From Megasphaera paucivorans (GTDB lineage: Bacteria; Bacillota; Negativicutes; Veillonellales; Megasphaeraceae): 54,583 nucleotides of DNA. The DNA lies in contig NZ_FNHQ01000018.1 in NCBI RefSeq assembly GCF_900103535.1, positions 1 through 54,583 of the forward strand, read 5' to 3'. Shown here piece after piece: positions 46,726 to 49,020 of this stretch. A model generated the notes under the pieces. It was not told the DNA's origin and ran no database searches. It saw nothing but the letters and a program-made list of their open reading frames with translations. Both the position numbers and the translations under genes were made by a program. Each line of letters starts with the position of its first letter. Position 1 is the first letter of the stretch.

Positions 46726-47159
46726 ACAAAAACCTCCTTTTCAAAATTTGAAGCATACTAAACTAGAAATAAGTCCTTTAAATATACCCTGTATAAGCAT
46801 ATAGTATTACATAAAATCAAAAAATTCAAGAAAATAAAAGTAAAATAACATTAGAAACGCATTAAAAATGACAGCTAATAGTAATTCTATGCTTAAAATA
46901 CATAAGTATTACGTTTTACTATATAGATAATTGCGCATTAAGAAATAAAAAAAATATAAAATATTGCCAAAAAAATATAGTATATAGATTATTTTTACTA
47001 CTTAATAAAATAAAATATATTAAAAATATTTATTATTGTAAAGCAAACAACAGTGCAGCTGAAAATTATTTTTTCATAAATATGAAAGGATGAAATAGGC
47101 GCAGTTGATGATTGATGATATAATAATATCAAATGTAAAATAATGGGGAGGAACGTATT
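46726..47159. other. AT-rich intergenic spacer between cstA and the cobT-like gene
   Basis: The 434 bases between the divergent cstA and cobT-like genes hold no recognisable gene. No cobalamin riboswitch core was found. A TATAAT at 47119-47124, without a clear -35, lies about 36 bases before the cobT-like start and may be its promoter. GGGGAGG at 47144-47150 is the ribosome binding site. The left half must hold the cstA promoter, but no good consensus pair was seen. Confidence 0.5.
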
Positions 47160-48161
47160 ATGCATACGGTGCTGGAAGAACTCGTCAATCAGATTGAGCC
47201 GCTGCAGACATCTGTTATGGCTCAATGTCATAAAAAGTTAGAGGCACTGCCGGATAAAACGGATCCGGCGTTGTGTTTTTTAGCAGAGCGGATTGTGGGG
47301 ATTCAAGGAACAATTCATCCAAAAAAATTAAAGAAGGCTGTAGTTGTTTTTGCGGCAGATCATGCGGTAGACGGCGGCGAGAACATAACTAAAGGAAAAA
47401 ACAGTGAAGCAGAAGCACGGCAGGTAGCTAAAGGAACAGGCGCTGTTAATAAAATAGCGCATCGGATTGGTGCAGGTGTTTTATTGGTGGATATGGGATT
47501 ACAGCAGGATATTCCCGAAACAGAAGGAGTACAAATCTGTAAAGTCAGACATGGAAGCCGTTTTTTTGGCATCGGAGCAGCTATGACCAAGGAGGAAATG
47601 ACGGATGCCTTGCTTTGCGGGGTGGCATTAGCGCAGCAATTAGCTGATGAAGGATATACGGCAATCGGTCTTGGAAATATAGGAGAACGAGGACTGCTTA
47701 CTGCCCTTGTTATAACGGCTGCATTTTTTCGGGATAAGATGAATGAACTGCCTGAAACCGTAGACGCACAGGATAAGATAACTCAATTAGGTGCCATGCT
47801 GGATAAACATGGTTTAAATCGGAAGAACCCAATCCAGTTGCTGCGCTGTGCCGGCAGTCCGGATATTGCTGCGATGGTTGGCTTTATTTTATCGGCGGCC
47901 CAGCGGCGGCTGATTATTGTATTTGATAATGCGATTACCGGTACGGCAGTTTTATTAGCACATACCTTATGTTCCGGTGTGGATGCGTATGTATATCCAT
48001 CCGCTCGGTATGCAGAACCGGTACACCAGATGCAAATGAAAAAGTTAGGACTTACTCCGTTTTTACAGTATGATGTCATGGGCGACCAAGGGACTGGTTC
48101 TGCATTGGGGTTATCCGTGCTGGATGCAGTAATTGAAATGATGGAAGAGAAGATATCGTAA
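47160..48161 (+). CDS. CobT-like phosphoribosyltransferase (divergent)
   Basis: The 333-residue product matches the CobT family (nicotinate mononucleotide:dimethylbenzimidazole phosphoribosyltransferase) in FAADHAVDGG, GTGAVNKIAHRIGAGVLLVDMGL and LLRCAGSPDIAAMVGFILSAA. Two places differ from classical CobT. The GEMGIGNTT loop is replaced by AIGLGNIGERG (residues 168-178), losing its Glu. The C-terminal GEGTGA is GDQGTGS (308-314), with Gln in place of the catalytic Glu. So the annotated lower-ligand reaction may not apply. It is 37 bases before a larC-type gene and shares no operon with other cobalamin genes here. Confidence 0.8.
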   Translation: MHTVLEELVNQIEPLQTSVMAQCHKKLEALPDKTDPALCFLAERIVGIQGTIHPKKLKKAVVVFAADHAVDGGENITKGKNSEAEARQVAKGTGAVNKIAHRIGAGVLLVDMGLQQDIPETEGVQICKVRHGSRFFGIGAAMTKEEMTDALLCGVALAQQLADEGYTAIGLGNIGERGLLTALVITAAFFRDKMNELPETVDAQDKITQLGAMLDKHGLNRKNPIQLLRCAGSPDIAAMVGFILSAAQRRLIIVFDNAITGTAVLLAHTLCSGVDAYVYPSARYAEPVHQMQMKKLGLTPFLQYDVMGDQGTGSALGLSVLDAVIEMMEEKIS

Positions 48162-48198: not shown

Positions 48199-49020
48199 AT
48201 GAAAACATTATATTTAGATTGTTTTTCGGGAATTAGCGGCAACATGTTTATTGGCATGTTATTACATGCGGGAGTTTCTTTTGAAGAAATGCGTTCAATG
48301 ATGGAAGGACTGCATTTAGACGGATATTCGCTTATTTGTAAAACTGTATCTAAATTAGGAATCCAAGCAGTATATTATAATGTATTATTGACGAATGAAC
48401 AGACGCATGAAGAAACAGAACATGATGCACATGAACATCATCACCATCATAAAAATAACCATCTGGTAATAGATGCTGGCGGACATCACCATCATCACGC
48501 GCACAGAGGATTGGCTGAAATTACAAAAATCATTCAGGATTCAGCGCTTACGGATACGATTAAAGAAAAAAGCTTAGCAGTATTTGCGGTGTTAGCTGCT
48601 GCGGAGGCTAAGGTACATGGTGTACCTGTGGAAGAAATACATTTTCATGAAGTCGGAGCTGTTGATTGTATTCTTGATATTGTGGGGACTGTTTGGGCAT
48701 TGGATTATTTAGGTATTGAACAAATAGGCGTTTCGCCGCTTCATGTAGGCAGCGGTTTTGTTCAGTGTGCGCATGGAATTATGCCGATTCCGGCACCAGC
48801 CTCTGCAGAACTTTTGACGGGTATTCCGTACTATTCTACAGATGTTTGCGGTGAGTTAGTTACGCCTACGGGAGCAGCATTGGTTAAAACATTAGCGGCA
48901 TATATAGGACCTCGGCCAAAATCTTTTGTTCATTCCTGTATTGCATATGGTGCAGGAACTAAAAATTTGTCAATACCAAATGTTGTTCGAGGGTTTATTG
49001 GGCAAGCGGAAAAATTTTAA
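48199..49020 (+). CDS. larC: LarC-type nickel insertion protein, N-terminal (LarC1) half only
   Basis: LarC inserts nickel into the pincer cofactor of lactate racemase. The 273-residue product matches the LarC1 half: LYLDCFSGISGNM at the start, two His-rich stretches (HEHHHHHKNNH and GGHHHHHAHRG, about residues 79-108), IHFHEVGAVDCILDIVG, and a closing YGAGTKNLSIPNVVRGF. The family's usual SGD near the start is SGN here. The LarC2 half does not follow: the DNA after 49020 enters the tRNA cluster, so no frameshift product is possible. Start at ATG 48199, after GGAG. Lactate racemase genes are not in the window. Confidence 0.8.
   Translation: MKTLYLDCFSGISGNMFIGMLLHAGVSFEEMRSMMEGLHLDGYSLICKTVSKLGIQAVYYNVLLTNEQTHEETEHDAHEHHHHHKNNHLVIDAGGHHHHHAHRGLAEITKIIQDSALTDTIKEKSLAVFAVLAAAEAKVHGVPVEEIHFHEVGAVDCILDIVGTVWALDYLGIEQIGVSPLHVGSGFVQCAHGIMPIPAPASAELLTGIPYYSTDVCGELVTPTGAALVKTLAAYIGPRPKSFVHSCIAYGAGTKNLSIPNVVRGFIGQAEKF

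Follow-up and report, generated by a model that had tools for sequence, protein, structure and literature searches.

The window analyzed here is a 54,583-nucleotide stretch of Megasphaera paucivorans contig NZ_FNHQ01000018.1, and it carries near its end an intact gene for a CobT paralogue of the ArsB type that stands without ArsA and is called the orphan below. The features of this gene and of its downstream neighbor are collected in Table 1. The product matched the Pfam family PF02277 (DBI_PRT; 2e-64) and is thus a member of the CobT fold, but its scores fell well under the cut-offs of the NCBIfam CobT models (164.6 against 319.3 bits for TIGR03160 and 176.3 against 306 bits for NF000996), and it does not belong to the CobT equivalogs. 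An AlphaFold model of the protein had a pLDDT of 88.8 and a pTM of 0.91. A sequencing error or a broken gene was ruled out, the reading frame being conserved among relatives. A scan of the window revealed no riboswitch near the gene, and the counts of promoters and terminators were at about chance level. Public annotation would probably label the gene cobT and so predict cobamide base activation, which is unlikely for this protein. The genome does possess a second, classical cobT, for which the initial annotation had proposed to look (G000:C64:11260-12312, G000 being the genome of the window), with the motifs SFGEMGIGNTT and ALGEGTGAV.

Table 1. Features of the orphan arsB locus, in positions of the window
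Feature	Positions	Strand	Remarks
Ribosome-binding-like site GGGGAGG	47145..47151	+	Basis: sequence
Orphan ArsB-type CobT paralogue gene	47160..48161	+	ATG start, 333 aa, intact ORF
Site corresponding to the LTKPxxSL loop (CobT, paired ArsB)	47247..47270	+	LPDKTDPA here, motif lost; by alignment
Cavity loop 1, AADHAVDGGENITKG	47352..47396	+	CobT base-pocket loop; remodeled, strongly conserved among orphans
Cavity loop 2, GLGNIGERGLL	47667..47699	+	Replaces GELGMANTT (Glu174 and GNTT loop)
Region of the CobT GxGxN loop	47730..47825	+	Motif absent, low conservation
FDNAITG loop (DG in CobT)	47922..47942	+	Conserved among orphans
Cavity loop GDQGTGS	48081..48101	+	Replaces GEGTGA (Glu317)
Truncated C-terminus (KIS, stop)	48150..48161	+	Tail of about 25 aa of paired ArsBs, MKTFGEA-V-VA-DGPG--RQ, missing
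larC1 (N-terminal half of LarC only)	48199..49020	+	TIGR00299, PF01969 positions 1-237; probable operon partner

The gene had been described as encoding a CobT-like protein that lacks both catalytic glutamates, and alignment to CobT, the check suggested at the time, agreed with this description. Asparagine (N173) lies at the position of Glu174, and glutamine (Q310), preceded by D309 in GDQGTGSA, lies at that of Glu317. The accompanying statement that the rest of the fold is kept was correct for the fold as such, but it overlooked that the GNTT and GxGxN loops, around which CobT holds the phosphate of NaMN, are gone from the window protein as well. That GNTT, GxGxN and both glutamates are lost together, as read from the alignment, argues against the ancestral reaction.

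The window protein derives from ArsB and is not a damaged CobT. Its best PDB match by phmmer was Sporomusa ovata ArsB (4hdk_B, 3.5e-39), which was also the closest sequence in alignment A1 (31% identity), while the matches to CobT (8.7e-25) and ArsA (3.5e-21) were weaker. The best structural matches of the AlphaFold model were likewise ArsB chains (Z 41.5), with CobT at 39-40 (39 for 6b5f and S. enterica 1d0s). In a maximum-likelihood tree the protein fell within the clade of characterized ArsB (support 100/98), apart from CobT and ArsA. The nearest known system is the ArsB subunit of ArsAB as in S. ovata and Veillonella parvula. The members from the Megasphaera family formed one clade (support 100/99), in which the orphans of G017 and G021 had long branches; the ArsA clade contained no member of this family. 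In each family genome represented in the tree, the other CobT-like gene was a true CobT. All of the relatives that could be named belong to Megasphaera or stand close to it (M. cerevisiae, M. massiliensis, M. micronuciformis and M. hutchinsoni among others); they came from the narrower ArsB alignment A2, the diverse alignment A1 having given no conserved stretch.

Like the window protein, S. ovata ArsB is without the GNTT and GxGxN loops, but it has both glutamates, the LTKPxxSL loop and the C-terminal tail, none of which the window protein has, and it is encoded in tandem with ArsA and has another cavity signature. The likeness to CobT consists in the fold and in membership of PF02277, and the LTKPxxSL loop is a further CobT motif that is missing. 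In paired ArsBs of three other Veillonellales families, G-[NETDQ]-x-G-E-R replaces GEMGIGNTT, the GxGxN loop is absent and there is mostly no glutamate at position 317. A larC-specific cause of the glutamate losses was ruled out, since paired ArsBs lack the same residues; going by these alignments, the missing residues are a trait of ArsB and not of larC. The expectation that the losses mark a larC-linked variant of CobT was therefore not borne out.

ArsAB is the enzyme that activates phenol and p-cresol as bases; the published role of ArsB is that of a subunit, and 4hdk is an ArsAB complex. ArsA and ArsB are tandem CobT homologues that are required for phenolic lower ligands and almost confined to Negativicutes, tandem encoding being the criterion of membership (PMC6461909). 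A motif table of about 115 homologues showed complementary decay, in which ArsA and ArsB lose opposite sets of motifs. The ArsAs retain GEMGIxNTT, RGTxIS and GE(A/G)xGAS and in many lineages are without the LTKPxxSL loop and the C-terminal tail, whereas the ArsBs retain LTKPxxSL and the tail MKTFGEAxVAVAxDGPGxxRQ and have lost the cavity motifs in many lineages. In some families (L088, L089, L096 and L101) both subunits contain both motif sets, and these look like early stages. Because of this complementary decay, and because the base pocket of S. enterica CobT is formed by both chains of the dimer (PMC9561151), ArsAB would have a single composite site in which the cavity of ArsA is completed by the loop and tail of ArsB; that ArsA is the subunit with the active site is likewise suggested by sequence. 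In two genomes a single protein resembles a fusion of ArsA and ArsB (L103:3032-5161, 709 aa, and L118:3458-5500, 680 aa), and the former carries two DBI_PRT stretches.

ArsA was found in none of the 17 Megasphaera-family genomes, in which the PF02277 search yielded only CobT and the orphan ArsB, so that ArsB nowhere stands in tandem with ArsA; Megasphaera is absent from the published table of predicted ArsAB genomes. CobT is kept in all 17, intact and unlinked to arsB. It is accompanied by an intact orphan ArsB in 14 genomes, or 15 when G027 is counted, whose frame is open in the retrieved locus. In G015 arsB is a pseudogene and in G020 it is absent, and thus the orphan is dispensable in some species, although some assemblies are drafts, which makes these two absences less secure than that of ArsA across the family. 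Alignment revealed that the orphans have lost the LTKPxxSL loop and the C-terminal tail, while the CobT of the family retains its own LAKPPGSLG loop and tail and thus, as far as these motifs go, does not obviously need ArsB. Directly upstream of the orphan arsB in nine genomes is a gene for an iron-containing alcohol dehydrogenase (PF00465; L034:7481-8581 and eight other Megasphaera loci), which is absent from the window.

The orphan arsB is under purifying selection and is not decaying. In six Megasphaera pairs omega was 0.02-0.07, similar to the values for larC1 and for cobT (the latter leaving out the G014/G022 pair, which did not converge), and the likelihood-ratio statistics against omega = 1 were 114-282. 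For the pair of the window and G028, which represents the window's own genus, omega was 0.19 and the statistic 65, a constraint about threefold weaker.

Conservation in the orphans has shifted toward the cavity. Among 12 orphans the mean conservation was 0.565, with 0.36 for the N-terminal 34 residues and 0.49 for the C-terminal helix, and the five cavity loops exceeded the rest by 0.264, a difference reached in none of 332 circular shifts, the regions having been chosen from knowledge of CobT, in whose fold such loops are well conserved generally. Because the cavity loops are the best conserved parts throughout the CobT fold, such a pattern is not by itself proof that a ligand is bound. Cavity loop 1 had a conservation of 0.85 in the orphans against 0.48 in paired Veillonellales ArsBs. 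The pocket of the orphan has the signature AADHAVDG-EN--G, GER and DNA-TG, and its polar residues are D67, H68, N75, E176, R177, D256, N257, T260 and E286.

A parallel exists in family f2. The ArsBs of G001, G002 and G004 have lost the loop and tail but retain the AVDG-N-T--G and GER signature; ArsA is degenerate in G001 and G002, and only a fragment is left in G004. These losses are independent of those in the Megasphaera family, and since the signature survives in f2 too, the function of the pocket seems to be older than the loss of ArsA. The degenerate f2 ArsB also resembles the orphan in adjoining a LarC1-like gene, but it differs in having an ArsA remnant beside it and in that the LarC1-like neighbor is without the HFHEVGAVDCILD core. 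This LarC1-like protein, found behind arsAB in f2 (L069:9230-10009, L110:4778-5554, L109:3211-3957, L111:3139-3876, L112:3351-4112 and L108:5209-5940), is strongly diverged and also lacks the His-rich stretch. It persists in G001, G002, G004 and G005, which have no LarA match and no LarE above the cut-off, and for this reason it probably has another role. In two f2 genomes the ArsA is without catalytic motifs while its frame is open (L109:4874-5890 and L111:4769-5806).

We favor, with moderate confidence, the reading that the orphan is a stand-alone protein of the CobT fold that no longer activates bases and whose remodeled polar pocket serves another ligand; a changed ligand, in the form of another base, had also been considered initially. 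The orphan has its origin in ArsB, which is one subunit of the ArsAB heterodimer. After the duplication the catalytic cavity would have stayed in ArsA, and ArsB would increasingly have been reduced to what completes the site of its neighbor, judging from the motif sets that each retains. In the ancestor of the Veillonellales the cavity of ArsB itself would have been remodeled to the new signature and larC1 placed behind arsAB; the Megasphaera lineage then lost ArsA, and the remaining ArsB lost its loop and tail too while the new cavity was kept under selection. Because ArsA, loop and tail have been lost but the new cavity is kept under selection, the orphan most likely acts alone or as a homo-oligomer. 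Its polar residues would bind, and perhaps act on, a putative ligand other than NaMN plus base, and we infer that this binding is the selected function. More tentatively, we suggest that the orphan has been neofunctionalized, that a new ligand, perhaps a metabolite of the cobamide or pyridine-nucleotide type, is bound or converted in the pocket, and that the pocket arose while ArsB was partnered with ArsA and was freed on at least two occasions in the Veillonellales when ArsA was lost. The family would be a stepwise case of a homodimeric enzyme that splits into one catalytic subunit and one that completes it, its intermediates being found in living lineages, after which the non-catalytic subunit persists alone under selection.

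The neighborhood of the gene brings in a different candidate for the ligand. An adjoining larC had been pointed out initially and is present, with larC1 37 nt downstream (3-94 nt in relatives); in 13 of the 17 family genomes the two genes are neighbors on one strand, and larC1 also lies behind arsAB in several other Veillonellales families. The substrates of LarC derive, in the published pathway, from nicotinate mononucleotide, and a NaMN-like pocket might bind a pyridinium mononucleotide intermediate for LarC, much as the initial annotation proposed in linking the protein to the nickel-pincer nucleotide. Against such a role, which we regard as quite improbable, are the missing NaMN-binding loops and the lack of any LarC near arsAB in 40 genomes outside the Veillonellales. 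Co-occurrence with the lar genes also fails both ways: G017 and G021 keep arsB with no larA, larB, larC or larE above the cut-off, while in G015 and G020, where arsB is broken or absent, larA, larB, larC1, larC2 and larE are present. Since arsB and the lar genes part in both directions, an obligate nickel-pincer role for the orphan is unlikely; the arsB-larC1 neighborhood looks like an inherited operon, and a non-essential link would also be compatible with these data.

Other readings dispense with a new ligand. After the loss of ArsA, ArsB might have swapped partners and formed a heterodimer with the unlinked CobT, modulating its activity or its choice of lower-ligand base, which would agree with the retention of CobT throughout the family, the preserved overall fold and the known role of ArsB as a subunit. 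We consider this unlikely, as the orphans have lost precisely the loop and tail that ArsB keeps beside ArsA and have preserved a cavity of their own, while the CobT of the family is complete in cavity, loop and tail and survives in G015 and G020, where ArsB is not intact. That the gene is a decaying, functionless relic of arsAB could be thought from its fate in those two genomes, from the long branches of G017 and G021 and from the weaker constraint in the window's genus, but this very improbable explanation is already largely refuted by the omega values and likelihood ratios, those of the window pair included, and by the fact that 15 of the 17 genomes have the frame intact. It is hardly probable, finally, that the orphan is still a base-activating phosphoribosyltransferase with another general base. 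The E317A structure of CobT (4kqi) is stated in its title to hold the reaction products, and D309 is conserved in most orphans. With valine in place of Glu317, M. jannaschii CobT relies on Asp52 (PMC9561151), so the loss of Glu317 would not by itself prove inactivity. However, the loops for the NaMN phosphate and the LTKPxxSL loop are missing too, and the family already has CobT.

LarC is split and unlinked in the genome of the window, larC2 being located directly behind larB on another contig (G000:C58:59357-60397; L115:4247-5443). Split LarC is found in most family genomes, and distant relatives have full-length LarC. At one further locus (L121:4701-5474, with G032:C3:53554-53757) a 3' remnant of arsB adjoins larC1 and an intact arsAB lies about 5 kb away. 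The genome of the window has an unusually rich set of ten matches to the LarA domain (PF09861).
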